DNA from: Xiphias gladius | Taxonomy: Eukaryota > Chordata > Actinopteri > Istiophoriformes > Xiphiidae | Reading direction: 5' to 3' | Length of the DNA: 64,000 nt | Assembly (NCBI RefSeq): GCF_016859285.1 | Contig: NC_053422.1 | Location: 8,929,501-8,993,500 of the forward strand | Shown here: piece after piece, positions 6,001-62,889 of the stretch | Layout of the letters: every line of letters begins with the position of its first letter | Numbering within the stretch: position 1 is the stretch's first letter | Translations under genes and position numbers: made by a program | The notes under the pieces: generated by a model | Seen by the model: only the letters and a program-made list of their open reading frames with translations | Told to the model about the DNA's origin: nothing | The model's database searches: none

Positions 6001-7001
6001 GTTTTAAACCAGGCTATGTCCCCATTAAACATAATTAATAACTATACAATCCTCTGTGTCAGCCTCTCACCATCAAATCGGCGGTGTCTCTGGGTGAAGG
6101 TAGTCAAAAGGAACTGGCTGTTGTCTTCGATGGCTTTGAGGAAGTCCCTCTCGCTCTGCAGGGCCAGTGTCTCCTCCATCTGACTGGAGCAGCAGGTGTA
6201 GTCCTGAGGACAGAGCCGCAGGTGCTCACCTGGAAAGTAAAACCAGGCCAGCAGAGAAAGAAAGGTTAGGACCAATCACGCCCCTAGAAACCTATGTGGA
6301 TAAATTCGATTTTTTTGGTTTAATCACAACATAATGTATAATTATATGCTATTGCTTTGGATCTGTATAGTAATCATGTTTTTGTAAAGCGCTTTGGGCT
6401 GCATTTCTACATTAAAAGGTGCTACAAAGATAAAGACATTATTAATACCTCCGCAAAAACCAAGACCTATTCTCAATACCGTCACTGGGTTTATTACCAG
6501 ATCAAAACAGATGTTTTTAGTGAAAGAGTCAATTCCTCCACTTATGAGTCTGTTCTGTTCCTGTAGGGAAATCTTATCAAAGATGAGCTTGTGATAGAAA
6601 ACTGTGAATTCCATGCATGAATTATTCAGCTTCAATCCGTCTTTCTTTGTCCGCTCAGGTTGGGTCTTTAATATGTCAGAAGTAATGATATGCAAACGAC
6701 AACCAGGAGGGGGAAGTAACACACAGCTTTCAAAGAAGGTGTAAAGGTTTGAATTCTTTATTTCTATAATTTTACATACATGAATATTACTGCAATGAAT
6801 GCAGTTGAAAGTCCCATTCCCAACTCCACCCTCGCTGATGTTCCCCTCTGCCTCTTTTGTTCTCTCCGTGTGTCTCACTATTAGCCCTCTCTCATCCCTT
6901 TATTTCCATTTCTAAACTGCCTCTCTTCATCCTTTGCTCTCCCAGCCATCTGCTCCCCTGGCCCACGGGACAGTGAGCCAAGACTCAGGCAGCGATGGCC
7001 C

Positions 7002-7097
<96 letters not shown>

Positions 7098-7237
7098 CAA
7101 TAAAAACTGCAGTTTTCTCAGTCACTCATGCACAGGGCTGAATTGCCTCAAAGTAAATCCTCTGCATTTTTTTTTTTGCAAAGATTTTACTCATAAATGT
7201 TAACTCTTAACATTGAAAGCTCCATGTCTGTCTTTGG

Positions 7238-7328
<91 letters not shown>

Positions 7329-8369
7329 CATCATCATCATCATTCCCTTTTACATGCAAAGCTAAACCGCCAAGAAGTAGGTTACGTCTTGAGTTACTCA
7401 AGTGCTCCGTCATGTGCTCACATGGTCAGACATTCATATCTTGACAAATTTCTGCTCAGAATCTGCTCCTTCCTCCTCTCCTCTATCCCACCTCCGTACC
7501 AAAACTTCACATTATCCAAAATCCAACTGTGTGATGCCCTTTCATTCAGCAGATAAAATTAATCCCAGTGAACAGAGCCTATGGGTATATGCAGGGATTG
7601 AACAGTAGACCAGTAGGCAGCGACTAATTAGGGGCGAGGTTCTTTGTTGCACCGGTGTTGGCAATTTGCTCATCCCCTTAATCATCCTATTTAAACAGCA
7701 CAGAGGGGAGAAGGGGGAGGGTGTTATTTGTTTTATACCAACCCGGTATTGTTTGTCTTGAGGAAAACGCACCATGATGTTCCTACAGTGTGTTTCTGGT
7801 GCTTATTAGTGAGTTTTCAGCCCCCCCTGTACTTTCTGATATCACTTTCCTACAGTGATTTGTAGTGTGTCTGTGGTATTTAGATGTATTTTTCTGCTAG
7901 AATATTGATTATAATGTTCCCATAATGATTTGTGGAGAGTCCGTGTTGCTGCCCATAGATTTTCTGGTGACCTTAATGTGCATAATGATATTTTAATCCC
8001 TGTTGAGACAAACTAGAGCCTGCTGACTCACCTACATCTCTGATGCTAGATGTATCTCACAATTTATTAGTATGGACTTGAATTAGGCACACATTTCTCA
8101 CAATATGACGGCGGGACTGTTCCGCTCGAGTCCCCAAAAACTGTCTGTCTGTGTCACTTGTCCCCGCCGCAGGCTAGATGCGGAGTCTTACCGGAGATTT
8201 GAGTCAGCGGAGCGGTGTCCGTGCCGTACCCCTTCACCGCGTACACCTGCCGGGTCTCGGCGCAACTCCTCCCCGCCGCAGCCACGGGGCTCCGTGCCCC
8301 CGACAGGGCTGCGACCGTGCAGAGCAGCACCAGCAGCGGGTACCCGGGGGAAGACAGGCGGGCATCCAT
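1..8369 (-). CDS. gpc2: Glypican-2 (partial; 3' end beyond the left edge)
   Basis: Heparan-sulfate proteoglycan core protein, normally GPI-anchored at the cell surface, where glypicans modulate morphogen signalling. Eight exons are visible in transcript order: 8369-8192, 6229-6071, 4807-4673, 3063-2888, 2731-2651, 2112-1947, 1125-995, 113-1. All joins keep frame, giving about 379 residues. The ATG at 8369 precedes a hydrophobic signal peptide ([14 protein letters not shown]). The glypican cysteines are present: [47 protein letters not shown]. Exon 8 starts at residue 343 and carries RSKR at 356-359, a convertase-type site where glypicans are often cleaved. The glycosaminoglycan sites and GPI signal lie off the window. 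gpc2 rather than gpc1/4/6 rests on the GPF.MEL.A.SI.VK.SE segment and on stag3 being head-to-head next door. Introns of 1-2 kb hold microsatellites and a LINE/SINE-like tail. Confidence 0.87.
6383..6444 (+). repeat. LINE/SINE-like 3' tail fragment in gpc2 intron 1
   Basis: The stretch reads AAAGCGCTTTGGGCTGCATT and then a GTGCTAC...AAAGATAAAG run followed by ATT units. This resembles the conserved 3' tail shared by many teleost L2-type LINEs and their SINEs, which end in 'GTGCTATAAAATAAA' followed by short tandem units. The family assignment is from memory and needs a repeat library. Confidence 0.5.
7002..7093. repeat. (CA)n microsatellite, gpc2 intron 1
   Basis: An almost uninterrupted AC dinucleotide run of about 90 bp. 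It creates artefactual Thr-His and Cys-Val reading frames on the two strands. Confidence 0.97.
7241..7326. repeat. Second (CA)n microsatellite, gpc2 intron 1
   Basis: A second pure AC run of about 85 bp, some 150 bp from the first and in the same orientation. It is followed by a short (ATC)n stretch at 7329-7342. Confidence 0.97.
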
Positions 8370-8820
8370 CCTCGCCGCAGGACTCAAAAACCCACACGGG
8401 CGTAGGGGGACGGGTTCCTGTAGCCTAAAAACAGACTATGGCTGCAGCGGCTTATAAATGAGTGAATAACTGTCCGGTTCAGGCGAACGCAAAAGTAAAA
8501 AGAGTAACAGGGTCCCAAATCGTCAGTCTGTCAAAAACAGTCATAGTTTTCTCCGATAAGTGCAAAGAACGGATGCACCCGGACTGGGTTTTTACATCAC
8601 ACACGTGTTTCCATCGAGCGGGTCCGGTTTGTCCGTCCTTCCCTGGGAGAGCCGCTGTTGTAAGTACATGCAAAGGGAGAGTGAACGGGGCACTCCCGTT
8701 CCTCAGCATCCTCCAACGAACTCCGTCAAGACCCACGAGGGGTGGCAGGACGATACCGGAAAAGCGTCCCTTTTCAAAATACGAGCGCGGGCTAGTTTAT
8801 TTGGGTGGCATTGTTTCAGT

Positions 8821-14600: not shown

Positions 14601-17600
14601 CTCCATATCCCAGGAGATTATGGTCCAAAGGATGGAGTACACAGCGTGATGGAACATGCTAATTAAAATCTAATGCTGATAAATGGACACGTTAATGAGT
14701 TAATCACTTTGTTTTGTGATTAGCAGAGCAAACCACAGGCTTCTGCCTCAAATGTGCTACTTAGCACAGTGTTGGATGTTTCCTTCATTCCTTTTGTGTC
14801 CTGTCTTCCTCCAGGATTCAGTGAACTACCCTCTGTGCACTCCAGGACCCCAGCTGAAGCGTTTCAAAGCCGGACTGTCCGAGTTTGCTCAGGTTCTGCT
14901 ACGCTCCTGTAGGAATAGCCTCATTTATGATGAATACCTCTTCCCCACCCTGCTGGCCCTGCTCACTGGCCTCTCTGACTCCCAGGTCCGAGCCTTCAGA
15001 CACACCAGCACCCTGCTTGGTAAGCATATTGGTACGGTACAGGTGTATGAAATAGAAAAGCATACCGATTTCACAAGGGAGCTCTGATTATAGTATTGGG
15101 GTGACACGTTTTAGTTGTCACTTTTGTTTACTAATCACTGAAGTCACTTGCTTTAGTTTTTGATAAGGGTAAAACCTGCACTCCATGCCTGTGATGCCAG
15201 AGGTTTTTATCCTGCTTTTCTGGGTGGCAGAACAAATTGCTCCATTCAGCTGACATCTGTTTTAGTTGCTAGACAAGTTCTTTTTGTTTTTCCAGAATGT
15301 ACTCCTCCTGTGGAGCTTGCTTTGTTTGATTCTCATTCTTTGGAGCCCCCTGCTTAACCATGTAATTTCCTCCTTTCTTTCAACCAAACCACAAAATAAA
15401 ATACATCAGTTTATCCAAAATGTGATTAGTATTGTACATTACTGGCAATGATTTACTCTTTATACTCTTTGGTCAAGGAGGTGCAATTAATGTAACTGTT
15501 GGACATCAAACTGTTGAGGATTTCTATGGCACATTGTAGATAAACTACTGTGTAAATGTGGACTGTGACTGTACTTATTGGGGGCAACATACTTTTACAT
15601 AAAAACTGTTTTTCTTTTTTTTCTTTTTTTTTTTTTTAATGATTTGTTTAGTGTTGTTTTTTTTCCCAACAGAGCAGAAATAGTCCGTCCCCCATTGACC
15701 TTGTCAACCTCTATTTTTTTTTTTTTTTTTTTTTTTTAATGTATTTAGCCATGAAGCTGATGACTGGGCTGGTGGAAGTAGTTGTGACAGTGTCTGTTCA
15801 GCTGCAAACCACCCAGCGGCGTTATGACACGGAGAACGGCAAGAGAGAGCATGACAGAGCCTCTGACAGACTGGAGGAGCTGCAGGCCACCATCAGTGAG
15901 GTGACACATATACACACAAACACTGGCATGAGTGCAGACAGTCACTTTTACATGAACATGCAGGTCAGGACCTTAAAGCAGTGAAGTGACATTGGCCCTA
16001 TGAGGAAACCTTTGGGAGGTTTGTTTTGTTTGTTTTCATGAGAAAGGTTACAATGGACTTGTTAACAGTGATCAAACTGAAATATACATATTAAAGAGAT
16101 TTTTTTTTTGCATGTAACCCTTTTTAACAGGTTCTAGTAGGTCCTTGGCAACAATACACATTTTCCCTGCTTGTTGGACACAGGTTGTTATTGGCTGTAG
16201 GGTTTGGAATTGTCACTTTTTTACCACCCAAATAGATTTTTGATAAGTTAAAAAAAAAAATGTTTAATTTGCTTACTTGGGTGATAGTAGAGAAGGTAGC
16301 AAGGATTCAGCCCGAATGATTGATGTGCTTGCAATAACTTCTCACCTCGTCTTCATGTATTGTAAAACACAGAAATTCTGAGCAATAGAGATAGGTACCT
16401 TTTATATCAGGGACAACAGGTAGTGCATACTTTAATTGTTGTTATTAAGATTGATAAGTCAGCATTAGGAGTAATACAAAGGATAAGTTTGTCTGATATT
16501 TTTGTGTCAACAATTAAGTAATCTGTGACAATAACGATATTATCTCACTATGGACTGATGTCGGTATGGTGAAATTAACTCCTTAGTCACAATAAAATCT
16601 GGACAAACTAGTATATGAGGAACATTTTTGGAAGTGATGATTGGTCTTCAAAGCAATAAAAGATGATCGCCCAAGCTGAACCACAGACTGTACATACTGC
16701 AAAAGGGGTTAAACACATGGACAGGAGCCCACTTGACTAGGCTACTGATTTATTCACAGTCTGTATGCATTGTGTCCGTATTCATTTGTTTCATATGTAT
16801 GTGCTCTAGCTGCAAGAGAAAAGAGAGGAGCTGTCCTCCATGATGAACGCTACCTTCCGTGGTGTGTTTGTGCACCGTTACCGGGACCGGCTACCAGAGA
16901 TCCGGGTGGCATGTATTGAGGAGTTGGGCATGTGGCTGAAAACGGACCCTGAAGACTTCCTGAATGATGGATGCCTCAAATACCTGGGTTGGACCCTGCA
17001 TGATAAGGTTGAACACACAGGACTAGACAATAGAAAATACGTTACCAAGTAAAGTGTTACTGTAAGGTCAGTCATTTATTTCGTGGTTCCGCCCATGACT
17101 GGCAACAAAATCTATCACAGAGGTAGCACCTGTCTGTCTGTAGCTCCCTCCAGGTCAGCAGCGAAAATAACAGTGACAAGGACTACAGTGCATAGGGAAG
17201 AGGGTAGTCCACATTGAGCCACTTTTTATTTTATTTTTATTCATTATAGGCTTTGACAGCCACTCATACCAGAAACAGTTGCAGAATATCTGCACCCAGA
17301 CACATTAAATCACATACACACACTTGCACAAAGAGAAATGTTCACTATAAACAGACTTGGGAATTGTATGTCTGCAGGTTAGAGAAAGTGTGTTACTGTA
17401 CTGTCTTCTTTCCCTTAGCAAAGTCCAGTGCGTCTGCGGTGTGTGCGTGCCCTGCAGGGTCTGTACCAGGAGAAGGAATTCATTGGTCGCCTGGAGCTTT
17501 TCACCAATAGATTTAAAGTGAGGGATCCCTCTGGATTGGACTCACACCTCATTTAATTCCTCTTTTCTCCCTCCTTTCCCCCCTGTCTGTCTGCCTCAGC

Positions 17601-18022
17601 ATCTCTCTTTAATCTATTGTTTCAACTTATTGTATTGTATCTATTTTGTTGCCTGCCTATGCCTCTCTTCCCAGTGTTTTGTGCCACCTCCCCTTAGTTC
17701 CCTTTTTTTTTTTTTTTCCACCATTCCAGTTTGTTGTTATGGTCTCTTCCTTTGTCTGGGCGTGTGTCTGGGCATGTTAATTACTGCCAGTTACTGATGG
17801 TTAATAAGCTCTTCTCAAACACATAAAAATCCTCCTAAACCACATGTGCTGCAGCAGATAAATGGTTTTCCTGCCATGGCTTTGTGCCTAATCAGTGGGT
17901 TTGTGTGCATGCATGTATGTCTGTGGGTGTGGGTACACACATGCATGTCTGTGCATGTACTATATAAGCCTATTTGGCTGCTTGCATGATTATGCATTTG
18001 TCTGTGTGTGCGCCACTGCGGA

Positions 18023-18079
<57 letters not shown>

Positions 18080-21000
18080 AGGAGAGGATGCTCAGCATGG
18101 TGTTGGACAAGGACCCAGACGTGGCCGTGGAAGTGGTCAATCTGTTGCTGCTGATCCAACAGTGAGGGGTTTCTCTATCTCTGGTGGTTTCTCAGTGCCA
18201 CTATCTGCAACACACAGTGCAGGCATTTCATTTTTGTAGTTCAAAACATACCAAATGTAGTAAATTTTACTGGTACAAATTAAAGTGCGTTTTCCTTTTT
18301 TTTGCATTGATAATTTTGCCTCAAATACCTGGGGTGGACCCCTTTTTTTTTTTTTACAGAAAATATGTATTCAGCTGCAGTTTAGAGCACTAGTTATAAT
18401 GCTACACAGTTCTTCTACTGTATTCACTTAGTGTTTGGTCTTTTGCACCATATTAGTTCATATGGGCAGTGTTGTTTTAAAGGTCTGAGGCTTTTGCATC
18501 AAATCCCTGAATGACAAACCCTACAAGACACCTGAGTAAAACATTTCTTATCTGGAAAAGTGATGTTCACTCAACCAAACAAAAATTCACCTGACATGTA
18601 AAGTGAAAATAACCTAACACTGCAAATATATCCTGGCTGTCCACAAGTGATTCCAAGTCCAGCTTCTCAACAATAGAGGTGAAATGTGAGGATGCTCTTC
18701 GTCATGACCGCGCTTGACTGACAACATGAGTCGTGATCTCTTATGAACGACTGGCTCAAGTCAAATGTAAATTAGATGTTTTCAAGATTAATTAACAAGA
18801 GAGATGACAAAGTGGTGATGAGATTCAAGAATTCAACTGCTGGTTATTAAAGGGCTGTTTAACTATATGAAAAAATATTCATATCGTTTAATCCTATACT
18901 GCAAGAGAGCAAGAAAACGTCAGTTAAATATCAATACAAATCACTTAACAAGAATAAGTATGGTGCTTGATGACAACAGGTTTTTCACCTTGTGTTTTTG
19001 ATGTAACATTAACTTTCTTGACTTGTATCTTTTTGTATGGGTTCACAATGCAGGAGGACAGAGGAAGGCCTGAGAGAAGAGGAGTGTGGCCACATCTATC
19101 CCCTGGTTTACGCTTCACACCGAGGCCTGGCGTCTGCAGCCGGCGCCTTCCTCTACAACAAGTATACTTCCTTCCTTCCTTTACTCACAGTTTTTAGACT
19201 AATGTGCAGAGTAGTAATATTTGTCTCAGGTTGTTAAGATGAAGCTTTGTATGTGAAACTCATTCTGTATTTGACAAACACTTTTCCGTTGCTGTTAGTC
19301 TTTTTATTTATGCAGTACATCATAATACCCTTTAAGCTCTTTTCTTTATAATGGAGCATTTTATGGCCAAGTGCATGTGGAATCAGACTGATCAGTGATC
19401 AGCTAACTTAATCTATCTCATTATCTGTAATTACTAATTTCTTTATTTTTGGTTAATATAATGAGATCATTATTTTTTATGTCTGTGCGTCAGGCTGAAA
19501 AGTGTCATTTCCCATGACAACCAGGAGGATGAAAAAAGTGACAATGCAACTTTCTTTCAAATCCTCATCTCCTTCTACATCCAGAGTGAGGTAGCCTCTC
19601 TTTTGTTTCTCTCCCTGTCTCCCCCTGTTTGAAATTAGAATCATTTGACAATGTGTATGTAGATAATTTGCTTTAGTCCTTTAGTTAAGTCTTTTTTTCT
19701 GTATTTTTCCTGAAACTAAAATTGAATAATGTTATAATATGTACAGATGTCAGATATTTTTTTAGTGCACATTTTCAATGGCAATGTGCTTTGAAGGGAC
19801 AGTGAGTGATTGACAAACAAAGCTAGATCAAAGGGATGCAAAGTAAAGTCCTGCTAATGTTTCCTACAGGAAATTTGCTCATTTGCCTTTGTTTTCATGA
19901 TGAAAAGTTGGCTAACAATGACGATATATATACTCTTCAAATCATGTTTTACTTTGAGTTGGCTATGAAAAGCTACAGTGGACAAAAGGCTTAGGACATG
20001 TTATTTTTACAGCGGAAACGATGAAAATCCATTCAAAAGCCCAAGTAATGGTGATTTTTTTTTTTTTTTTTTTTTTTTCCGTCCATGATCAAATCAGTAG
20101 CCAGTTGATGGAAATTACATCTTATTTATTTTATTTATTTACATACTTACTTACTTACTTTTAAAATACCAAACATTTGTATAGAGTGTCAGCTGTATTC
20201 CATGCTGGTCATTGTAGTTTAGTAACACACTGGTAATATACACCTGAAGTAAATCTAAAACAACTCATTCCCTCTTAACAGTTTCATGAGCACGGGGCAT
20301 ACCTGGTGGACAGTCTGTGGGGTGTGGCAGGATCTGAGCTGAGGGACTGGGAGACTATGACAGCATTCTTGCTACAGGAGGCTGGTGAGAGGAATGAAAT
20401 GAGACTGTTATACCCTCCCAGCTTAACATAAGGGATAAATCTCATGTTTTATCACAGTGTTAGTAAAAACATCGAGTCTGCTCCTGCTCCTTCTCTGTTC
20501 CTGCTTTGTGTTGTCTCAACTTTCACCCACTCAGTTCTACTGCAGTCTCTGCCTCTCTGTTGTCAGGTCTGATGTATGAGGAGGAGGGGGCTCTCATTGA
20601 GCTGATGATGTGTGCCCTCAGACAGGCGGCACACGCAACCCCACCTGTCGGGAGAACTCACAGCAAGAAGGTGGTGACACACACAGACGCACAGTTGCAT
20701 GAATAATTCTCTGTAGTTTTATGTTTTTGGAACAGTGGAGCTTGGGGTTGAGAGAAATGTCATTCTTTGCTTTTGCCTGTCATACTTATCATACACATAC
20801 TTTGTGATACTAAAAAGGAATAAATGAGACATGCCACATCAGTCTGGATCATATGTGTGAATATGTGTTTTTGTGAGTAAATCTTGATTACCTCAGTCTC
20901 AGGCTGGATCCCCATTATAAGATACTGTATATAGTTTATTACAGTCATTGACAAGTGCTGGGCACGAACCTGACCTTTTTCTTTAAAGATAAAACATTGC

Positions 21001-24000
21001 ATGTTGTTTGAAAGAACATTACTTTGTTAAAGTGAATGTATGAATTTCACTTCTGGTCATTTACATTACAAATCTCTCATTCAATTATTCAGACACATTA
21101 ACCAACCTCAAACCAAGTATTCCAATACATACTGTATGTATGCCAGCATCTAGTAGCACAGCATATTGACCTTGTTCAAATTTGAACAGTACACACATAC
21201 TGTAGTTCCTGGAAAATATCCAGCCACATAATTCAGAGGAATACATATACACAGCTGCACATAAATACATAAACAAATATTTCATATTTTCCTGAGCAGT
21301 GACGGTAATTTTCTTGTCTGTGGTCATGTAACTTACACATGGGAAGCATAGTGTACACACTTACAATATCTGATGCCTTACATGTGCACGTAAATGTCTT
21401 AACTGCTTGCCTGTTACTGTTCACTGAATGTAAATGTGTGATTAGAGCTTGAGTATGAAAGATAAGAAGATCCAGGAACAAGACAGAAGACGTATTACCA
21501 CACACTTCATCCCTTTACTGCCACAGCTACTGACCAAGGTACACAGCCACAGAGTTCACTTAACATACTTGATATTACAAGTTGTTTAATCCAGTACATT
21601 AGACACAAAGGGTTAAAAGTGCTCAGCAGTTAAGAGTATTTGAACGGTTTTACCACCATAGTTTCTACACGGAAGGGTCATGCTGTATTAATGTCATTAT
21701 ATATTGCGACCTTGTATTACAGTATGAATAAGGATGTCATCAGACATGACTATGTCGTGTATCTACATACATTTTTGTTTTGTGTTTTTAAATACTGAGC
21801 TTCTGGTCTTTCTCCTCCTGCCCTCACTGACCTGTAGTACTCGGCAGATGCAGGGAAGGTGCGCCTCCTTCTCAAAGCTCCCCTCTACTTCAACCTGGAG
21901 ATGTACAGCAGCGCTCAGTGGCTGGAGAAGGTAGGAGGACTGGAAACGTGGAGGAGCAATAGAATTTCCCTGAATAGATGATTGAAATTTCTTCTGAACA
22001 ATTACCCCCCTTTTTCATATTGTGCTCCCATACACACTTAATATGCTTTTTTTTTCCTAAAGTATATTGTTGGAGATGGTAGTCTGATACGTCACGGGGA
22101 AGGAATGAGAATAAAATGGGAAAAATAGAAGGGACTGGGCCACTGGCACTAAGAGACATTTTCTTTTATGATTTCTGTCCTATTTAGGTTTTCAAAGTTA
22201 GTCTTGTCTGATGACTTAGTGTTTTCATATTAGTAACACAGGGGAATACAATACATGAGAAATGGTTAGTAAACCAAATATTTGTGGAAATAAACGGAAC
22301 AAAAATGAAAGCCTGACAGGTCAGAGAGAACAAAGCTGAACAAAAACTAACTTGCTGGTCAGGGACCATGGGAGGTTTGAGTTAATGAGGTCAGCGGTGG
22401 CAGGTTGCCTCAGCCAGCTGAAGCTGAACTGGTGGTGATGGGGTGGGCACATAATGGACAACCAGGAGGGGTGTAGATAAGATAAAGTAGCTAGGCACTT
22501 TATTCTGTTGTAAAGGGAAAGTCATCATCACAATAGACTTTTTGTCACAATATAAGAGAGCTAGTGGTGTTTAAGTGCTCAGTGAGTATGCATTACAGCA
22601 GTGAAGTGGGGCAACAGTGAAAATACATTGCGTGTCCAAATTCAATGTAACACAAAGAGTGTACTCCCACATAGACTCATCCACTGGCCTCACCTAATTT
22701 TACAAATATGAGGAGCCCAGCTCTTAAGGTACTCTGTCCTTAGCATTTAATTAAAATACTCTAATTATCCTAAGCTTCAATTATCATTATCACTTACTGA
22801 GGCAGTCATCACAATGAATGCTGGCTGCCTCTTGAGTGAGTGAGCAATCCAATAAACTAAATACAATTGTCCCAAGCAATACATGTTCTACGTCTTTGTT
22901 TCTTCTTTTTCCTCCATCTTCCCTCTGTCACTCACCCCTCTTTGTTTCAGCATCTGGACCTGCTGCTGTCCCAGGTATGTGGCATTGTGGAGAAGCACAC
23001 CGAGGTCACCGTGTTGGAGGCTTGCACCCACGTGGCCCACAGTCTTTGTTCTGACTCTTACACCTTCTCCTCCCGCGCACACCTGGCATTCAGCCAGCTG
23101 TTGGACGGCCTGACCGAATGCTTCGGCACATACTTAAGTGACCTGCTGCAGGTGGGTGGGTGTGTCAGCGACGTTTTCATACGGGCAAATATGGCATGTA
23201 TTAAAATGCATGCACACATGCTCATATGGAGTTGGCAGCTGTAGAAGTAACAGTTCATGCATCTGTCCTGCATTAGTAATGTGACCTATTTATTTCTGGG
23301 ATGTTGCTTGGTTAAATTTGTAACACAAAATTAGTGTCTCCGAACTTTAACATATCATAGATGTCAGTTGTCCATAAAACCATTAGGTAAGTAGTTTAAC
23401 AATTCTTGTACATGCAAAGACTTGCACAACTACTGTATACAATGAAATTTTGAAAACACAGGATTGTGCTCTAGAACATCACAACAAGGCAAAAAAATAA
23501 TAATAAAATTGCTCAAAGAAAATTATAATTCATTACTGTCCGGGTGTTTAGTAAAAGCTATTCTTTTTTCAATGAATGTGTTGGTTTTTATTCAGCCTGT
23601 TGTTTCTGTAGTAAAACAAACAAAAAAATATAAAGCATCTGTTGTCACATGTTGAGTGTGAGTTTGTGTGTTTTGTGTACCTAGGGCACTGCAGATGACA
23701 ATGACATATACAGTGCAGCCACTGCCTTGAAGAGGATCGCTGCTTTGAGCGGGTAAGTGTGCATTCTTATAATACACATGGTAAATGTACAAAACATCCT
23801 GTATAATTTTTTTTGTAAAGACGTGGTGTCTTTTTGTTTTGTGTGTCCTTGTTGTCCAGTGCAAAAGACCCGACAGGCTGGAAGCTGTTTGACTCCTGCC
23901 TTGAACTGCTGAAGAGCAGGATGGAGTCCAGAGAGCTCGACAAGGAGGTCTGTGATGAACTCACTGATATTTGAGGGGGAGTGTTGCATTGCGATGATAG

Positions 24001-27000
24001 AGGCCAGAACCTCAGGTGGTTAAAACCCCAGAGAGATCTGAGATTCTTCTATGATAAACAAGAATGGAGGTGTTTATAAAAAAAATAAATAAATAAAAAT
24101 CATCACAAAGCTGAAAATGGATTGTGGTGTCATGAAAATTGTATCAATTGACCACATCTTTTCAGTGGCTTAATTTTTTTTCATGCCACCTCTTAATTTT
24201 GCTCCACCTTGTACAACTGAAGGACAGAAAATTTGAGTTTAGGCTAAATAAGGCGTTTTACCAATTTTATTCCAACGAAGATCTGACATTTGCTTCTTAT
24301 GATAAAGAGGACATGTCACCTAGGCATTTTAAATTACTTTATTAAGTTTTATGTAGATAAGAATCAGCTTGGAAGAGTTAAGTGAAAATATCTTTTGCAG
24401 ATTGTAACGAAATCTCTCCCAAAGCTGATATTTAATGTACCTCTGTATAATTTCAGCTCATGGTGTCGGCTCTGAAGTGTGCGGCGCTACACCTGATGTG
24501 GGCCAAAGTGAATGCTGTCAACTACAAGCCAGCTGAGGTGCTCATCTGACATCATAAAAGAGCATAAATGTTTTCTCTCCACTCGATGTTTTGAAATAGT
24601 TTGACCTTCTCACAGTCTTTCACACGCTAACTTGGCTCCCGGGAGTATCAACCTACCTACATGAGATAAGCCGGCCTACATGATTAATACTTTCATGGTC
24701 ACATCACAGCCAACCCATGGTGGCCTTGCTGTGTGTTTGTAGAGCTTCTCATCCGTGTTGTTCAACAATTCACCGGCTCTACAGACAGCAGGCAATTAAC
24801 ACAACAATCTGTTTGTGTGCATATGAGCTCGTGATGACACTCAGATATTTATTTCCCGCTGGTTCACACTTTTTCTTACAGTTTCTCTTCATTTATCTGT
24901 TTTCTCTCACTCTATCGTTCATTGTAATCAGTCGTCACTCTTTCAATCCCTTGTTCTCTTTTTGAGATCATTTTCACTTTTTCTGCTGTTTTTCTCTCAC
25001 TCTGTTTCACACACACTGAGCATGTCATTATTAGTCATTCAGCCATTTGTGTGCTTTCCTAAAGGGGGTTCAGAGAAAAAAACATAAAAATCTCTTCGTC
25101 ATGTCTAGTTATTTTCATTCCTTGTCTGTTTTCTTGTTTTGCAGCATTGCTCAAATTGACGAGTTTCCCCTCCTGTGAAATTCTCATTTAAAGACGCATC
25201 ACAATAACAGCAAACAAATGCTGGTGAATTTCATCTGTAGTTGATCATTTTGTCTATTTTGTCTACTAACTGCTTTGAAAGCAGGATGGCATATGTAGTT
25301 AGCGGGAAGACAGACATTTGACTAAAAATATCAGATTTCACCTTCAACACTCTAAGGCATACCTTGGCAAGTGTGTCATCAAGATTTAAGAATCCCTAAT
25401 GGCACCAGGGGCGCTGCTCTTACACAAACTCCATACTTTGACCTGCCTGTGGAATAAACGAATAATTTTCTGTTAAATATCCATTGAACAGTGGTGGAGG
25501 TTGTATTTCATAGGGCTAGCTATTGTTGGTGTTCATAAGGAGCTAAATTTAAATCTATATTGCACGTGGGATGAAAGTAACGTGCCTTGCACCTCATTCC
25601 TTTCCTACACGCACGCAAAATTTACACATTAATAAGATGATGTATTTATCTACATCTGCTCTTTGTCCCTCTTGTCACCCTCTGTTGCAGGCCGAACTGA
25701 AGCGTCTGAAGAAGGAGGTGCGTGCGTTCTGCAGAGTCTGTGAGACGTGTCTGTCTCTGAACCAGACTGAGATCAGAGATCGGGTGAGAGCTTTGTGACA
25801 ATGGTAACACTTTACTTTAAGCCCCCCTATTTAGCATTTGTAAGCAGTATACAAAAGCATATTTTAAGTGTTTATTAATCTGAAGTATTTGTCAGCAATT
25901 ATAACTTCTTCTGTGAAGACAACTGTGTTTTACTATTTTTTCATTCATTATGTGTTCATATAGCAGCCTCTACCCACAGCAGCACATAAGTAATAGTTGC
26001 TGACAAATACAGTTTGTACGTAATGTATAGTAATAAACACTTAGATCTGCCTTCAACCACATTATAGTGTTATAAGCCATTTATATATTTATATACTGTT
26101 TATAAATGTTAAATAGGGGGGACTTAAAGTTTTACGTTACAATTAGCATTGCCCCATATGTGAACTAGGAGTGCAGCAATATTATTTTTGAACTGAGACC
26201 ATAGGTGAATGAATTTTTAAATCTGTTAAAAAAGCATTTTATTTTTTTAGTATTTTTCCTTTTTTAGAGATGTTACCCTTTGAGACAAGTTGCTCCTCAG
26301 ACAAACTATCATCGTCATCTTAATATTAGCGTTATAGATCTGAATTTTAATATAGAGAGACAATAAATTCCAAGGGTTTGTGGGTTTTTCCATCCACAGG
26401 CATTTGAGCTGCTGTGTGACTTGCTGCTGTTGTACAGTATTAGTTCGGTCCGCTCTGAACCCGCCCTCCAAGCACTGGTCCACCTTCCCTCTGATTCCCT
26501 ACGCTCCGAGATGGCTGCTTTCCTTCTGGACTACATCTTCACTGACTCTGAAGATGCTGAGCTCAATGGTAGGACTGGGGGATACGGACCACAGTATTGA
26601 CAATTGTTTTTTCATATTGATCAGTATTGATAGTTATCAATATCCTCAATGTTACTTTGACACCATATGAAAAAATAACACCCACTCCAAATGGTTGCAT
26701 AAACTATGGTACTTTCCCGAAGCACCTTCAGTCAGTGTTGACAAAGTGACAACACTGTTACAATTGTCATCTGAATAATGTTCAGAAACGGATTTTTTTT
26801 TTTCTTTACGCATATGTAGTGTTTTGGAAATGCTTAATTTTAACACTGCCCAAGCTTTCCCAGAGGGCCCTACCCTCATTTATGCCTGCGGACATAGCTT
26901 TTGATGTCTTATTTTGAGAATCTTCTGCTGTAACTAATCTTTATTTCTGTATTTTACAATGTGCTGCAAATTCCCAAACACCAGTCTTTCATCACATTCT

Positions 27001-30000
27001 GATTTTGTTTTGTTTTATAGACATCTGAAAGCTTCTCCTCTGGCTCACCTGTCTCTATTTCTCAAGTTAACTATTGGTCTATCACTGCCCCATATTCTCT
27101 TTTCCTCTCCTTTCTCTTCCCATTCTTCAACCCTGGCTCTCTTCTAGTTGAGGGGGAGGAAGAGATGAAGATAACTCTTCTCCAGAAGAAGCGTAACCAG
27201 CTGGCCGGCTACTGTAAGCTGGTCATTTACGGAGTGCTGGACCTCACCGCCGCCACCGACGTCTTCAAGCACTACAGCAAGGTGGAGATGGGGATAGGGG
27301 CTTAAAGGGATAGTTTGTTTTTTTTTAACCTAGCATATTACACATACATAATGTATAATGTATATATACGCGTATTCATATTCATTGACTGGCTGTGTGT
27401 CACAGTTGTTTGCATATTTAAGCAAACTAGTTAAATTAGTTTAGAAATAGCTAAATTAATAGTTCAGTTAGACCGTCATTCTTTGGCGATATTAAATGGG
27501 TTAGGAAACAGTTTGTCAAACATAAAAAATTGGTAACAGAGATGATGTGTAAGAGAGTGGAGGAGGGTGAGAAAATCTGTTTTACAACCAGTTAGGTGCT
27601 AAGAATGAGTCAGAAGAACAGTGGTTAAAGGAAGCTCGGATGACAAGAACGAAGTGTATTTTTTTTTTTTTTTTTTCATTTTTAGACGTCTAGCCAGCCA
27701 TGTTAATTAAATAGACTAATGATCATAACTGAAGTTTTTTTTCCTCCCTCTCTTTTCCGGTTTGCTCCAGTACTTTAAAGACTTTGGTGACATCATTAAA
27801 GAGACTGTGAGCAAGAGCAAGCTCATCAATCCTGTACAGAGCGCCAGGACAGTCTGTTTGAGCCTACAGCAGGTGTGCACTTGTTAAAACCTTAATAATA
27901 ATGTTAATGATGAGACCGCCTGAGAATTATTATTATTTATATTTATTTTTTTAATATATTGATTGTAAAGTGTGATGGCAATGAACTTTTAGTGAATACA
28001 TGACATATATACCTTCCACAGGGAATTTGTAATTTGAAAACTGTCATTAGTTATGATGATAGTACTAAAGCTGCATCACACTAAAAACATCATTACTGAA
28101 TGTTGTTTTCTCTTTTGATAGTTTTGTTGTTTCACATCTTTTTGATTGTCACAAATTTGTTAGCTGATTGTGGAGCTTTGTTTTTATCATTTCATAATCG
28201 CAATGTTCTGATGACGACTGTGCTTTTTACATATATAAGGGAACATTTTTGCACTGAAAAACAGCAGCTACCAAGACCTAACAGATCTTTGTGTGTGTAT
28301 TTAACAAAACATGCATCTTCCGCTAATACATATAAACAAAACAATTGAGCAAAAAAAGTTAAAATATTATAAAGAACTTCTATATGCTTTCAAATAACAT
28401 TTAAGATGAAAATTTTCAGATGAACTGTATACTGAAAATAAGAATAACTTACCTATAGTTTATCCTAAAAGAGGATAAACTGTTGATGTATCTAAAAAAA
28501 TAAAAATAAAAAACAGGATATGCAAGGATGAGTTTTACAAACATTTACTTCTAAAAAGGTAAATTTATCGTTTTTAAGCGAGTTGCTTTATTTCTACATG
28601 TGGAAAATGTCCACATATGTTACATTACATTAGCTGTTAGCTGCCCCAAAGGTAGATGTGCATCCTCAATTGGTTGTAAATGGCAATGTATGTATTTACA
28701 ATCTTTTTACTATATTAGTAACATTTGGATTGCGCATATTCATTTTCTTTAATAGTCAGTTCAGTGTTTCATGATGCAAACTTCTTATTTGATTCTCCAA
28801 GTAAATTAAAACCGGCGCTTGAATTGCGTAGAGGTATTTTTTAACCTTGCCCAAACAAGTGGAACAGTCTGTCCATATCTATAGAACTGTCTGAATATCG
28901 TTCCTTTCGCGTAACATGTTTACACAAAGTCATGTTTGTGCGTATTCAGCTGTTCTCAGAGATGCTTACGGAGGACCATAGCAGGCAGGATCTCCGTGAG
29001 ATTAGAGACTTGGCCAAGAGGCTCGCCATGAGCTTTGGCATCGATCTTCATCGTGTCCGCAAACCACTGGTGGCCCTGCACATGTGAGTAAAACACATGC
29101 CTATGACAAACGCATACAGACCAGATGTGTGAGGTCCTCACTCAGTTTATTAAATTTTGATTTTTACCATTTCACTTTACCAAGTGCAGTTTTTCAGCTC
29201 TTGGGGGCTGCAGTAGCTCAGTAAAAGAAATAGATAGAGGAAATGTGTGTTGCAGGAGACCTGACATGACAATTAACTCAGGTGGTGATGAATCGCCACA
29301 TTTGAAGGGTGTAAATTAAACATTACGTTTAGTACAGTATTATTTCTTTTAACATTATAGTTCATTCTATGTTATAAATGTTTTTATGTTAGAGCTGATG
29401 CGTGTGTTGTGTTTGCTCTCAGGGACGGTATACGTTTTGCGTTTCGCGACCCACAGGAGGGAGCGGAGCAGCTTCCGAATATGGCCTTCTTGGAGATTCT
29501 CAGCGAGTTCAGTTTTAAGCTGCTGCAACAGGACCGCGCCCAGCTGTGAGAAACTAAAACACACAAAAACGTGAACTGTCAGAAGGGAAGGTTAATTGGC
29601 TGAATCCAGTGCCAATGTTTTAGCTAATTTCTCTATTATTATTCAGTAGAGGTACGTAAGTTATTCCAGAAACGCCCCAAAGGAAATGGATTTTGTACCT
29701 TTTTGACAACGGGGGGGGTCAATTTTCTGATTTAAGAAACTTTAAATTCTCAGTCTTTCTTGTGTAATAACAGCAAGCAAGTATATACAGATATACACAG
29801 AGTAAAATAAATGTATTCAATACTGAAATTTCTTGTCAGTAGTGCAGAAGTGGGATTGGAGCACTCATATTCCAAACTGTAGGCTAAAGCTGCTGAAGCA
29901 AGCTTTTTATGTATTGAAATAAGCTTTTTGTTAAAAAAATAATTCTAACAGTAATGTTTATACATTTATTCCTTAAATTTCTCTATAGGTTCTGTGTTAA

Positions 30001-32485
30001 TGGTTGAACTGGATCAAAATCGATTCACCATAATTTACGGAAACCTGCACAAACCGAGCCACTAAACACAAACAAAGGCTTCCTTGGTCTTTGTCCTCAT
30101 CCCTCTGTCGCTGTCGTCCCCTCCCAGGGCTGCATTGTTGAAATCAGAGTGTCCCAGTGCTGCCCTCTCCTGGCCCTCGGTCAGACTGTATCAGCGTTCT
30201 TTGGAGGTTCGCACCCCTTCCAGACCCAGAGAGCATGAGGAGAGAGGTGATGCTGTCTCCTCACATGAAACTCCTGTAGCTAAACGCAAGAGGACCACTG
30301 CTCGGGGTGAGATGGTCACACATGCTATGCAAAAAACCCTGTGTATGGATACACTGTGCACATAACCAGTAATACTTGAAAAGGTGTTATATGAATGATT
30401 TTGGAATGATGTAGGAAAATGATGTCTTTGATTCCCTTTTTAAAGGTACGTCCCTGAACCAATGATTATTTTCATTAATGATTACTCTTTCTACCATTCG
30501 TGGTTTAATTGTAAAGGAAAATAGTTTTTAAAAAATGCCGATCACAAGTTCGCCCAAGGTGACATCTTCAGATTCCCTTTTATATCCAACAAACAGTTCA
30601 AATTCAAAGGTGTTCAATTTGCAATGATATGAAACAGAGAAAAACTGCATTTCTCATATTCATAATCTTGAACTGGTGATTGAGTTATGACTGAAATGAT
30701 TGATCTCTTATTAAAATTGTTGTCAGTTTTCTTTTGTCTGGGTAATTAACCCCTAACCTTGTCAGTGCTAATGTGTTTGTGAATCCATTGGACTGTATCA
30801 TATCTGTCATTTAGTGTTGACTTTGTAAAACAAATACAATAAAAATGAAAATACAGTGAACAAAATGTTATAGTTAATAACCTCCTCTAGTGACTTGTGT
30901 GTCCTTCAGGTTCAGTGTCCAGCACCACCAGAGGATCCTGGTTGGACAGCAGCAGTATCAACAGCAGACTTCACACCCCAGCCCTCACCTCTACTGTCCA
31001 GAGACAGCCAGCCAAGAAGCTGGCCTCCAGAAAACCCACAGCACTAGAGTCTGATATCGGCAGCGGCTTAAATGAGCCGGAGTCCGAGGATGAATTCTCC
31101 TCGGGGTAAGTTGAATTTTATCATCAACACGTCTGAAGAATCTACTATGTCTTTTGCCAGGGGTTGGTTACTTTCTGTCAGTCTCCGCCAAGAGTCGACT
31201 ACTCCCTGTTATGTCCTAAATCAACAAATTGTGCAGTGTTGTGTGGCAAAGGGCTGGCTGTTTTTTTTTCAACATCAACCGTCACCCCGAGGAAAAAAAA
31301 AAAAAAAATTCCACAAGGCGATGTTGCAAACATAAAAATTTTGTGACTTGATGACTGAAGGTCTTGCTGATAAAATATTTATTTTTGTTTAAATAAAGTT
31401 GTATACAATTCATTTTCCTCATCCGTTAACACGTATTCAAATAGATGCAGATACAGTAGGTAGATAGAAACAGTATGTAGATGTAGAAAGAAAAAAAGAG
31501 GGAAGAAAGGAGGGTTTAACAGGTGCTTTGAACAATTTACCAGCCAGCTAAAATTTGTACTAGCTTGAGCCTCAGACTTCATGGCTGCCAAAATTTACCT
31601 GCTGCCATTCTCCAGGCCCCAGATGCGAAAGGTGAAGCAGATCAAACGACGCCAGCTGTCCTCCAGCCAGACTGGCCCCAATTTGGATCAGCAAGACCTG
31701 AACTCCCACCTCACCTTGTAAGACTGATCTGAAAGGGGGATACAAACGGTGCCATGCCAGAGTACTTGTCTCATGTCACAATAGCTATTATCATCCAAGA
31801 ATAATTGATAAAAATCGTTCTGTGTGTGTGATTCACAGGCTGTCCTTGATTGAAGATGACACTGCAGAAAGAGGGGAGGCGGAGATTGAGGATTATGAAA
31901 GTGACCGTGAATCTGCATATACACTGGTAAAAACAAAACATCTTGGCACAAATTACACACTCATACACATCAGGTATAGTACTTGTCATTAATGAGTCAG
32001 CTTTGAATCCTGTATTTTTCTATATAATCCTGAAATTTTGGCTTTAACATACAGATTTGATTAGATTTGTGTATTTTTGTCATTCTCTCAAATCTGCGTT
32101 TTCAGTTTAAGTAGCAACATGTATTACGCTGTTTTGCCACTGTGTTGGATCAGGGCAACTGAGCTACAGTTGAATTGATGCCCATTAAAATACATGATAC
32201 TTTTTTACCAGCAGAGTATAATGAATAAAGCACAAATAAATTCAGGATTTGTGGAGGCTGTGTCCATTTCTGATGCAAGAGGTATGAAGTATACATATTT
32301 TGACAGTGACTCTAGTGAAATAGTATTCCAGTTTGTGGGAGTTTTCTTGACTTGATTTTTTTTTTTTTGTAATTTCAAGATGAAGGACTACATTCCTGGC
32401 AAGCTCAAACTTTCATCCTGTTTTTGCTCTACAGCCCTCCACTCGTCACACTTCAGCCAGTGTCCTTGATGAGCTCTTTGATTGA
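11627..32485 (+). CDS. stag3: Cohesin subunit SA-3 (STAG3), complete
   Basis: Meiosis-specific stromal-antigen subunit of cohesin, which binds the kleisin and supports sister cohesion and the chromosome axis. I can build 31 coding exons: 11627-11655, 12419-12515, 12821-13048, 13937-14033, 14357-14433, 14815-15019, 15749-15900, 16810-17007, 17419-17517, 18082-18161, 19054-19161, 19494-19590, 20282-20384, 20567-20670, 21446-21538, 21838-21930, 22951-23151, 23685-23752, 23860-23947, 24457-24537, 25691-25783, 26400-26568, 27148-27281, 27771-27872, 28950-29083, 29423-29545, 30128-30306, 30910-31105, 31616-31717, 31839-31926, 32435-32485. They encode 1,222 residues in one frame; human STAG3 is about 1,225. 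The STAG domain holds [10 protein letters not shown] and QSCGCKG. The stromalin-conservative domain begins near residue 311 at [17 protein letters not shown]. The tail is basic, then acidic. STAG3 rather than STAG1/2 is chosen on length, divergence and the gpc2 neighbour. Confidence 0.93.
15711..15737. repeat. Poly(T) tract before stag3 exon 7
   Basis: A run of T lies a few bases before the exon 7 acceptor (AATGTATTTAG at 15748). It serves as the pyrimidine tract and may vary in length. Confidence 0.9.
18025..18076. repeat. (TG)26 microsatellite abutting the stag3 exon 10 acceptor
   Basis: Twenty-six TG units end in TTTAG directly before exon 10, which starts at 18082. There is no ordinary pyrimidine tract between the repeat and the acceptor. 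Confidence 0.95.
20058..20078. repeat. Poly(T) tract, stag3 intron 12
   Basis: A homopolymer T run with a short TTATTTATTTTATTTATTTA and CTTACTTACTTACTT region following at 20120-20160. It is simple sequence with no coding signal. Confidence 0.9.
25804..26140. mobile_element. Foldback MITE-like element in stag3 intron 21
   Basis: The left arm begins GTAACACTTTACTTTAAGCC. The reverse complement of the right arm begins GTAACGTAAAACTTTAAGTC. Both then continue through a C-rich block, CTATTTAGCATTTGTAAGCAG / CTATTTAACATTTATAAACAG. Further in, TAAGTGTTTATTA and TATTTGTCAGCAA occur on both arms. The element is therefore one long imperfect palindrome of about 337 bp with a short centre near 25920-25990. 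There is no transposase frame, so it would have been mobilised in trans. Confidence 0.8.
30458..30690 (+). repeat. Diverged teleost interspersed repeat, copy 1 (stag3 intron 27)
   Basis: Contains AATGATTATTTTCATTAATG, then AAAATGCCGATCACAAG, CCCAAGGTGACATCTTCA, CAACAAACAGTTCAAA and GATATGAAACAGAGAAAA, in the order I recall for a very common teleost element. Two more diverged copies occur in this window. The family name is not asserted. Confidence 0.6.
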
Positions 32486-33928: not shown

Positions 33929-44134
<10,206 letters not shown>

Positions 44135-46047: not shown

Positions 46048-48267
46048 GTGAAGACAGCCTCCTGAGCCAGGTGAGTAAAACATGGACTGGTGTGGTTGTG
46101 GTGTTCACAATGTTGGATCATTCAACTACAAACAGGATCTTATTCAGTTCCCTGTTGACTCCATCTTTTGTAGCTGCTTTTTTTTTTAATTATTATATTC
46201 CATGGTGACATGATAGAATTATAGGTTGACCTGGAGACATAATGTTTCTTCTTCATGCATTTGCACTCATGAGTACACATCGAGATGAATGTCTTTTTTT
46301 GTTTTATGTAAAGCATTAGTTTAACAAGTTTGCAAATCTCTTACAGGTCTTTCATTTCAGTAAGAAAAGGAAGTAGAGGACCAAGAATTTGCACATATAC
46401 CCTCTAATACTTGTCTTTCTCTGTGAACAGTGGTATATAAATATTGTAATATTAGTTTTTGCAAGCTAACAATTTATATTTTAAAAGTAAAATAGCAACT
46501 TCTTTTGTCAAATGAAACATACTGCGCATCTTGCAGGGGTTCAAGATGATTTCCACATTATGGCTGGGGGGGGCTCTCTGCTGCCTGACACTGCTCCCAG
46601 GTTAGTTCTGATTTCTTCATTGTGCAACTGCTACATCACCAATGTCTCAAATTTTTGGGAGATTGACCTCCAACAAATAATTTGTTTCCTCTTCCAGGGC
46701 TGCTGGAGTCCAAATCATTACTGAATGCCATCAAGCAGGAAGGTAACTGCAGACCTTAAATCCCTTTTCAGTTCAAAATTCCGCTCTCTGTCCAGGTGTG
46801 CAACTCTACTGCACTTTAAGCACTTTTTAGAAGGACTGAAAAAGTTGACGACTCCTGTTTTAACAGAAATGGTTCCTGTAGGTCACGTTAACATCGACTC
46901 CGAGAAAGCAAACGGCTACCTGACTCACTCCAGACCGAAGCGTAACGTTGACCCGAGGTGGTACATGGGAAACCCAGACTTCCAGGCTTATTACAGATAC
47001 TACAGCAGCATCGGCCACACCGAGGGGGTAAGAGACCAACACCCTGGATTAAAAAAAAAAAAAAATCCATATGCTACATTTAAAGATATGATTCTTTATG
47101 AATGAGTAAGCGTACACATTCTCATTCTGGGTGATGCCCTTGAGATTCACACCTGAAAGTCTGACTTCTGTAATGAAGCGGGATTTTCCCTTTGTAAATG
47201 CAGTGACTTTGGACGGTAAAGTCCGTATCTACGGACTCAGACACCTGGTTCCAGAAGCTGTGAAATACCTCACAGTCTTTTGTTACTTTCACTGTACAGT
47301 CAAAGGAGATTCGTGTGACTTTTGGGCTTCCTGTTGTGAAACAAAGAAAAAAAAAAAAAGAAAAACTCCATACCCCTGTAAAATTAGAAAATATTTTATT
47401 TTTCATAATCCCCACATTTAACTTCCATCGCTACAGTATCGTCTCTTTGTTTGTTCCCCCTCTCAGCTCTATGAGATCGACAAACTGCGGATGCTCTACC
47501 AGCAGATGAGGTACCTGGAGCACACCTACGGCCCCAACGCCTCCTATTTCCAGAACAAGCTGGGGTTGCCAATGATGCCGACGTGTGACCCCGCTACAGA
47601 CAAGAAGTGCAAAGTTGTTCCTCTTCCACCTCCCATGAAAGGGGTCCCGAAGCCCACGCCGCCCCCAGCGACCGCTCCCCCTCTTCCTCCTGCTCCATCC
47701 ATTTCCCAGGCTGACGTGCTGTACCTGTGCAACAGGAAGGACCCCCTCTGCAAGCCCCACATCGTCTACCTGCCCAGCGGCGCCGTGCCCGTGCTCTGCG
47801 ACCCCCGCTACCACCCCCACTGCACCCCCCAGAAGGCTGCACCGGCCCCCGTGGCAGTGCCTGAGCCTCCTCCGCCTCCACCAAAGAAGTCAGCCCCACC
47901 TCCGCCTCCACCAGTCCTCGTCAAGAAGTCTCCCCCTGCCCCCATCCGCATCTTCAAGGGCATGGAGTACGACTGTGACCCCTACTGGGACCCGGACTGC
48001 CTGATTGACCACCCACCCAGGCCTATGAAAGGGAAGATTGTGGTCCCGCCACCACCACCGCCTCCTGTGGAGGAGGAGGAGGAGGAGGAGCAGCCTGTGG
48101 AGGAGCCAGTACCTCCTGCGCCCGTGGCGAAGAAATTAACCTTCTACCCTCACCCTCACTACTACCCCATGCCCTACGATCCCAGGGATGATCTGTACGA
48201 CCCGGCCCGCTTCAAGTACCCGGAGCCCGCTGATGCTGCTGATGAGCCCGTGGAGGACAGTCAGTAA
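46048..48267 (+). CDS. Actinodin family protein (fin-fold actinotrichia component), complete
   Basis: Actinodins are secreted structural proteins of actinotrichia, the rigid fibrils of fish fin folds. A likely noncoding exon ends at 46070. Coding exons are 46546-46600 (exon begins 46537), 46698-46742, 46867-47027 and 47467-48267, giving 353 residues. The ATG opens a signal peptide ([19 protein letters not shown]). Residues 56-59 are RPKR, a possible convertase site, followed by [14 protein letters not shown]. The last exon carries four spaced cysteine pairs: C127-C135 (CDPATDKKC), C175-C182 (CNRKDPLC), C198-C206 (CDPRYHPHC) and C257-C265 (CDPYWDPDC). Proline-rich linkers and an acidic (E)n run separate them, and the end is Tyr/Pro-rich. 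This cysteine repeat is the family hallmark. Paralogue number is not resolved. A polyadenylation signal is at 48554. Confidence 0.88.
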
Positions 48268-49423: not shown

Positions 49424-54690
<5,267 letters not shown>

Positions 54691-62100: not shown

Positions 62101-62851
62101 TGCCACGGTAAGACTTGAACCAAGTTTGCTCATTGAGAGTAATTTGCAAATCCTTACTGTATCCTAGGCAGTTCAACTACTGGGCTTGATTATCTTATGT
62201 TGCCTGTTTTGTCGTTATAATTCAGTGCTAACCTCTTTGAATTTGCAGTACATGGAGGAGATATCTGATGCTCTAATGTATTGCCATGAGAAGAAAGTGA
62301 TTCATCGTGACATCAAGCCAGAGAATCTGCTTCTGGGCTATCGCGGCGAGCTGAAAATTGCTGACTTTGGTTGGTCTGTTCACGCGCCTTCTCTGAGGTG
62401 AGGAACCCCAGCGTCAACGCAACACCATGCCTTGTTGGAAACAGCTCCTTGCTGCTCTATGCTGTCACATAAGTCTGCTTATTGCTGCTTCTCTGCCTTC
62501 CCTGCTCACCTCTTGTTTCAAACATTCCCAGACGTCGCACCATGTGTGGGACACTGGACTACCTCCCTCCAGAGATGATTGAGGGGCACACCCACAGTGA
62601 GAAGGTGGACCTGTGGTGCATTGGGGTCCTCTGCTACGAATGCCTAGTTGGCAACCCACCTTTTGAAACTGCCAGCCATTCAGAAACATACAAAAGAATT
62701 ATGAAGGTTGGTGTTTTTCTTTGTCTAAAGCAATCAGTTGGGTAAACCTGAACTGTTTTTTCTGCTTTTACAAAGTAAAATCTGGAAAAAAAAACATCTG
62801 GTAGAAGCCACTTCCCTTCTGCAGTATGTGAGAGAAACCTTTTGGTTTTCT

Positions 62852-62889
<38 letters not shown>

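Follow-up and report, generated by a model that had tools for sequence, protein, structure and literature searches.

An intact actinodin gene between mcm7 and cops6 of Xiphias gladius, with a core that looks related to augurin and otospiralin

The actinodins And1 to And4 were described by Zhang et al. in 2010, whose work is taken here from the papers that cite it. In the literature, the family is marked by the repeat motif C(N/D)PxxDPxC (PMC4764851); and1 has a non-coding exon 1 and its ATG in exon 2, a zebrafish and1 primer encodes the peptide DPYAMFK, and the zebrafish mutants that have no actinotrichia are and1 and and2 mutants. The genes are described as specific to fish, and tetrapods are reported to be without actinodins (PMC4764851; PMC13121165). 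A 2026 review gives both genes for coelacanth, and1/2 alone for lungfishes, and neither for tetrapods (PMC13121165); a lungfish transcriptome paper left the absence of and3/4 open (PMC4764851), and bowfin expression data carry one and1-and2 entry and one and3-and4 entry (PMC8423624). Augurin has been studied as a hormone-like secreted peptide and is reported to alter the activity of a Wnt reporter, and a putative furin site is given for human ECRG4 (PMC10088197). In the open-access library that was searched (the founding actinodin paper lies outside it) actinodin was never combined with mcm7, cops6, ecrg4, augurin or otospiralin, nor was otospiralin combined with augurin. The available parts of papers treating actinodin and synteny gave no actinodin map position, and the literature examined, likewise in part, named no tetrapod relatives of actinodins. 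What is new here is the apparent actinodin-ECRG4-otospiralin relationship; the gene from which it was read is itself an ordinary actinodin.

The window, i.e. the whole 64 kb stretch of DNA that was analysed (C23:8929501-8993500; genome of 690.8 Mb in 1298 contigs), holds in this order a glypican gene (-), a STAG gene (+), mcm7 (+), actinodin (+), and cops6 (-). The upstream neighbour mcm7 (37317..44134, +) is a partial model that runs from the first coding exon, placed by eye, to the stop codon at 44132-44134 (+, by eye); one of its exons (41126-41392) finds MCM7-named PDB chains at 7.9e-49. The downstream, convergent neighbour cops6 (49424..52944, -; 5' part outside the model) has its stop codon at 49426-49424 (-, by eye), and an exon inside 52531-52944 finds PDB chains that bear the name COP9 signalosome subunit 6, at 1.5e-20. 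From the mcm7 stop to the cops6 stop there are 5.3 kb, the middle of which is occupied by actinodin. The sequence-only reading had put actinodin between the 3' ends of mcm7 and cops6, reading towards cops6, and both strands and stop codons agree with that; its word "nested" is loose, for the gene is intergenic, inside the interval that separates the two stop codons. We take human COPS6 and MCM7 to be adjacent and convergent too. The extents of the glypican gene (1966..8420, -) and the STAG cohesin subunit gene (14800..31715, +) come from an ORF scan; these genes presumably are gpc2 and stag3, respectively, going by the neighbourhood. Within mcm7 lie mir-17, mir-17, mir-19 and mir-25 precursors (42025..42833, +), a cluster that agrees with the microRNA cluster known for mcm7; mammals have three microRNA precursors at mcm7, without mir-19. 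Towards the end of the window there are a long open frame that resembles leucine-rich repeats but has no Pfam match (56171-57319), and protein kinase exons that are aurora-like by eye (60782-63999).

The actinodin gene is intact and has five exons, with GT-AG introns throughout and a CDS at 46546-48267 (+) that forms a single open frame of 353 aa (coding exons 46546-46600, 46698-46742, 46867-47027, and 47467-48267). Exon 1 (46048..46070, +) is non-coding, with its donor GT at 46071 by eye and an approximate 5' end; its start at 46048, a putative transcription start, is the figure of the sequence-only reading, whose range of 46048-48267 comprises this exon (to 46070) and the CDS. Exon 2 (46537..46600, +) carries the ATG at 46546 and, by eye, a hydrophobic leader, and ends in phase 1. 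Exon 3 (46698..46742, +) goes from phase 1 to phase 1, and exon 4 (46867..47027, +), from phase 1 to phase 0, encodes an RPKR dibasic site and the first half of the augurin/otospiralin-like core. The second half of the core, the proline-rich cysteine-repeat tail and the stop are in exon 5 (47467..48267, +). In the precursor, a leader would be followed by a furin-like RxKR site, a core of about 60 residues, and the proline-rich cysteine-repeat tail. This arrangement fits the and1 exon layout (exon 1 non-coding as judged by its donor; ATG in exon 2). Copies of C[ND]PxxDPxC amount to one strict and three degenerate in the window gene and to three strict in a gene on C5, which contains DPYAMFK and of which the window gene is a paralog. 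By its cysteine repeat, its exon layout and its paralogy to the DPYAMFK-bearing gene, the window gene is an actinodin, the link to a named zebrafish actinodin being one primer peptide, by way of the C5 paralog. Compared with And1-And4, it is alike in cysteine repeat and exon layout, in a teleost with four copies found, and differs in being a short form with one strict and three degenerate repeats.

At least four actinodins are present in this genome: the window gene on C23, one gene on C5, and two on C14. The counts are lower bounds, since the genome search took one exon at a time. The nearest relative of the window protein is the copy at C14:11634952-11635349 (62-65% identical over the matched exons), rather than the C5 gene that carries the and1 peptide (C5:18609033-18609649). 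Having DPYAMFK and three strict repeats, the C5 gene is taken, together with its partner at C14:19816064-19816937, as probably and1/2-type; the window gene, paired with the copy at C14:11.6 Mb, is probably and3/and4-type like that partner, judging by this closeness and by a modest contrast in strict repeats (one in the window gene, three in the C5 gene). The second and1/2-type copy, read over C14:19816000-19817050, is without the core tryptophan conserved elsewhere and has no Pfam match. Rows on C22 (2.18) and C6 (3.3) from the actinodin genome search were read and discarded by eye, and rows on C11 (0.53) and C8 (4.5) of a second genome search were left out of the count.

These types bear on when the gene was lost. 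In the review, lungfishes are without and3/4, so the loss of and3/4 would predate the fin-to-limb transition, and the window's actinodin type would have gone before the split of tetrapods and lungfishes. The sequence-only reading had presented a gene lost at the fin-to-limb transition: the absence of actinodins from tetrapods agrees with the papers, but the timing is probably wrong for this copy if it is and3/4-type. Its interpretation is weakened further in that this copy is probably and3/4-type, the zebrafish mutants without actinotrichia being those of and1 and and2; by analogy with the family literature, the window protein may add a non-collagen component to actinotrichia. The same reading saw in the interval between mcm7 and cops6 the ancestral vertebrate address of a gene that disappeared as part of the fin-to-limb transition, which we consider possible while leaning against it. 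An intact actinodin sits there between recognisable neighbours and its tetrapod loss has been reported; but the argument draws on one genome, the copy is probably of the type that the review gives as already missing in lungfishes, the second and3/4-type copy on C14 has different neighbours, and the and1/2-type genes, the loss of which removes actinotrichia in zebrafish, are on C5 and C14.

The neighbours of the actinodin at C14:11.6 Mb include pcyt1a and slc25a12/13 and, by eye from the ORF list, copb2, dvl3, ap2m1, dync1i2, itga6, and rapgef4. Partial support for these comes from an adaptor domain (ap2m1), a PDZ domain (the dishevelled gene) and an RA domain under the cut-off (rapgef4); the pieces of dync1i2 and itga6 that were tried gave no match. 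When the 1713 window ORFs of at least 25 aa were compared with 5257 ORFs in the 200 kb round C14:11.6 Mb, no non-actinodin match was found with E up to 1e-3, the matches being actinodin ORFs and one antisense overlap of actinodin. When the mcm7-cops6 interval was compared by blastn with 10 kb round the C14 copy and 11 kb round the C5 gene, coding exons alone aligned. The window and C14:11.6 Mb copies have different addresses. The window copy might have arrived in the mcm7-cops6 interval within the teleost or percomorph lineage, with the site on C14 beside pcyt1a and slc25a12/13 as the older one, as could be read from those neighbours and from the failure of the other window ORFs to match in the 200 kb; we think this rather unlikely. 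Duplicated regions can be left with few common genes after genome duplication and loss, which makes the lack of any shared gene in a 64 kb window a weak argument; furthermore, the window gene keeps its introns and therefore is not a retrocopy.

The explanation that we favour, with considerable confidence, is that the gene is an intact actinodin of the ordinary kind and of probable and3/and4 type, with a core of common ancestry with augurin (ECRG4) and otospiralin (OTOS) and an origin in a tandem pair. In Pfam, searched with E up to 1, the window actinodin matches Augurin (PF15187) alone, at 7e-4 and 20.2 bits. With E up to 10, the C14 and3/4-type copy again matches Augurin alone (2.3e-4, 21.8 bits), the C5 and1/2-type gene matches OTOS (PF15182; 0.0057, 17.0 bits) and Augurin (0.024, 15.2 bits), and the C14 and1/2-type copy matches no Pfam family. 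Because none of the four reaches the curated cut-off of Augurin or OTOS (27 bits each), we do not claim actinodins as members of PF15187 or PF15182. An HMM of three actinodin cores, run against 8573 ORFs from the window and from stretches of C14 and C5, has the C5 otospiralin exon as its top non-actinodin match (7.7e-6; the next stands at 0.27). Single actinodin cores as queries reach the otospiralin exon at 0.0033, 0.017 and 0.18, and otospiralin as the query puts a non-exon ORF (0.021) above the best actinodin (0.14). This weak otospiralin match, on C14 (ORF 86355-86609), was dropped as not exon-like.

Profile comparisons by hhalign give the actinodin profile 92.7% with ecrg4 and 94.0% with otospiralin. 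The profile scores 37.9 against a single ecrg4 and 38.8 against a single otospiralin, the maxima of 300 shuffles each being 22.8 and 20.3, respectively, and the background maximum 16.2 among 600 ORFs of 50-120 aa; a profile of four actinodins scores 37.0 against two otospiralins and 40.9 against two ecrg4s (200 column shuffles for each reached at most 21.2 and 25.0, respectively). The direct comparison of ecrg4 with otospiralin is not significant (0.3%; score 12.8, below a shuffle maximum of 17.9), and their link is therefore transitive, via the actinodins. All actinodin, ecrg4 and otospiralin sequences compared are from one genome, and in it the actinodin core looks related to both augurin and otospiralin. 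Viral contigs were scanned with the actinodin core alignment as well: 67 stretches matched the pattern, and none was confirmed. A resemblance of this kind could also arise by convergence of short aromatic-rich secreted peptides, in keeping with a domain of only 40-60 residues, with the weakness of the single-sequence searches, and with the lack of significance between ecrg4 and otospiralin; we find this improbable, as shuffles of the same composition never attain the scores.

Common ancestry would also fit the shared features of the proteins and genes. Like the actinodins, augurin/ECRG4 has an RxKR site and a core W-x5-D-[FV], and in both ecrg4 and the actinodins the core is preceded by a dibasic site, RxKR or RxRR; ECRG4 is without the actinodins' proline-rich cysteine-repeat tail. 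Otospiralin shares the core W-x5-D-F and the phase-1 start but has neither the actinodin tail nor the phase-0 intron, and a dibasic site before its core is present in the C16 copy and not in the C5 copy. Read by eye, the core exon of all four actinodins and of the C16 ecrg4 (which after splicing matches Augurin at 3.6e-59) has a phase-1 start and a phase-0 end, the latter 16 residues past the conserved D. The intron falls at GFDEQ/RLETD in ecrg4, GHTEG/LYEID in the window gene, GHIEG/LYEID and NQEG/VEDLD on C14, and NQEA/VQEMD on C5. Exon-start phases follow from acceptor site plus frame, with upstream exons modelled for the window gene and, in the C14 and3/4-type copy, placed by eye. The two otospiralin exons have a phase-1 start as well but stay open to the stop codon without an intron; actinodins interrupt the core by an intron, unlike otospiralin, whose core is uninterrupted. 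The identical position and phase in actinodins and ecrg4 speak against convergence, as do two equivalent tandem pairs.

A whole-genome search with OTOS gave two matches over the cut-off. One is otos at C5:18595549-18595731 (OTOS 6e-36), 13.3 kb upstream of the and1/2-type actinodin (from 18609033) and on the same strand; the other is an otos-like gene at C16:18317963-18317802 (-; OTOS 4.3e-14), 6.4 kb upstream of ecrg4 (from 18311440), again on the same strand. Both otospiralin genes found thus sit 6-13 kb upstream of an actinodin or ecrg4 in the same orientation, and actinodin holds beside otospiralin the place that ecrg4 holds beside the otospiralin-like gene. If 15 kb upstream are counted on one strand at each of six places (four actinodins, the C16 ecrg4, and an ecrg4-like exon on C465), about 6.5e-5 of the two strands of the genome is covered; two-of-two placement by chance would come to about 4e-9, a post hoc estimate that assumes uniform placement. 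The exon on C465 (250605-250727), a small contig, is the second with a likeness to ecrg4 and also exceeds the Augurin cut-off. Neither of the two over-cut-off OTOS matches is near the window or near the C14 actinodins, and a search of the window for an otospiralin relic found none. Rows on C24, C3 and C10 of the OTOS search (3.1 to 5.4, under the cut-off) and on C8 of the ecrg4 search (2.6) were left out.

The neighbours of the window gene offer a further hint at shared blocks. The glypican query has six matches (C23 twice, C1, C16, C6, and C14) and the STAG query five (C23 twice, C17, C10, and C16). Both occur together on C23 at 8.9 Mb (8.93-8.98) and at 21-22 Mb (21.4-22.5); on C16, at 15.99 and 20.86 Mb, they flank the otospiralin-like/ecrg4 pair at 18.3 Mb. 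These queries gave no match on C5, and on C14 there is a glypican match only. The co-occurrence on C23 and C16 is suggestive of one old duplicated block behind it, not decisive. Human map positions form the background to this paralogon idea.

Taken as one history, the actinodin core, augurin and otospiralin would descend from a single ancestor, which we infer to have been part of a tandem pair, in which an otospiralin-like gene lay upstream of one that resembled augurin/actinodin. Copying of this pair may have given otos with and1/2 at one place and the otos-like gene with ecrg4 at another, and the mcm7-cops6 copy would retain the actinodin alone. The repeat tail would be the part specific to actinodins. 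A bolder version, which we offer as tentative and rather doubtful, makes actinodin, augurin and otospiralin one family born of a tandem pair, with ECRG4 corresponding to actinodin in position and surviving in tetrapods; a core released at the RxKR site may signal in an augurin-like manner in the fin fold, so that the loss of actinodin would have removed a signal along with a fibre.

The proposed common ancestry also changes what tetrapods can be said to lack. That actinodins are absent from them, as the sequence-only reading had it, is reported in papers, but the core appears to group with ECRG4 and otospiralin, which tetrapods retain. Accordingly, relics can be sought next to OTOS and ECRG4 as well as in the MCM7-COPS6 spacer. 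If it is an augurin/otospiralin-like domain that forms the core, a structural protein of the fin would have an origin traceable to a small secreted peptide gene plus a repeat tail, and tetrapod ECRG4 and OTOS would serve as the comparison for the role of the core. Land vertebrates may then have lost one branch of an actinodin/augurin/otospiralin family and not the whole family.
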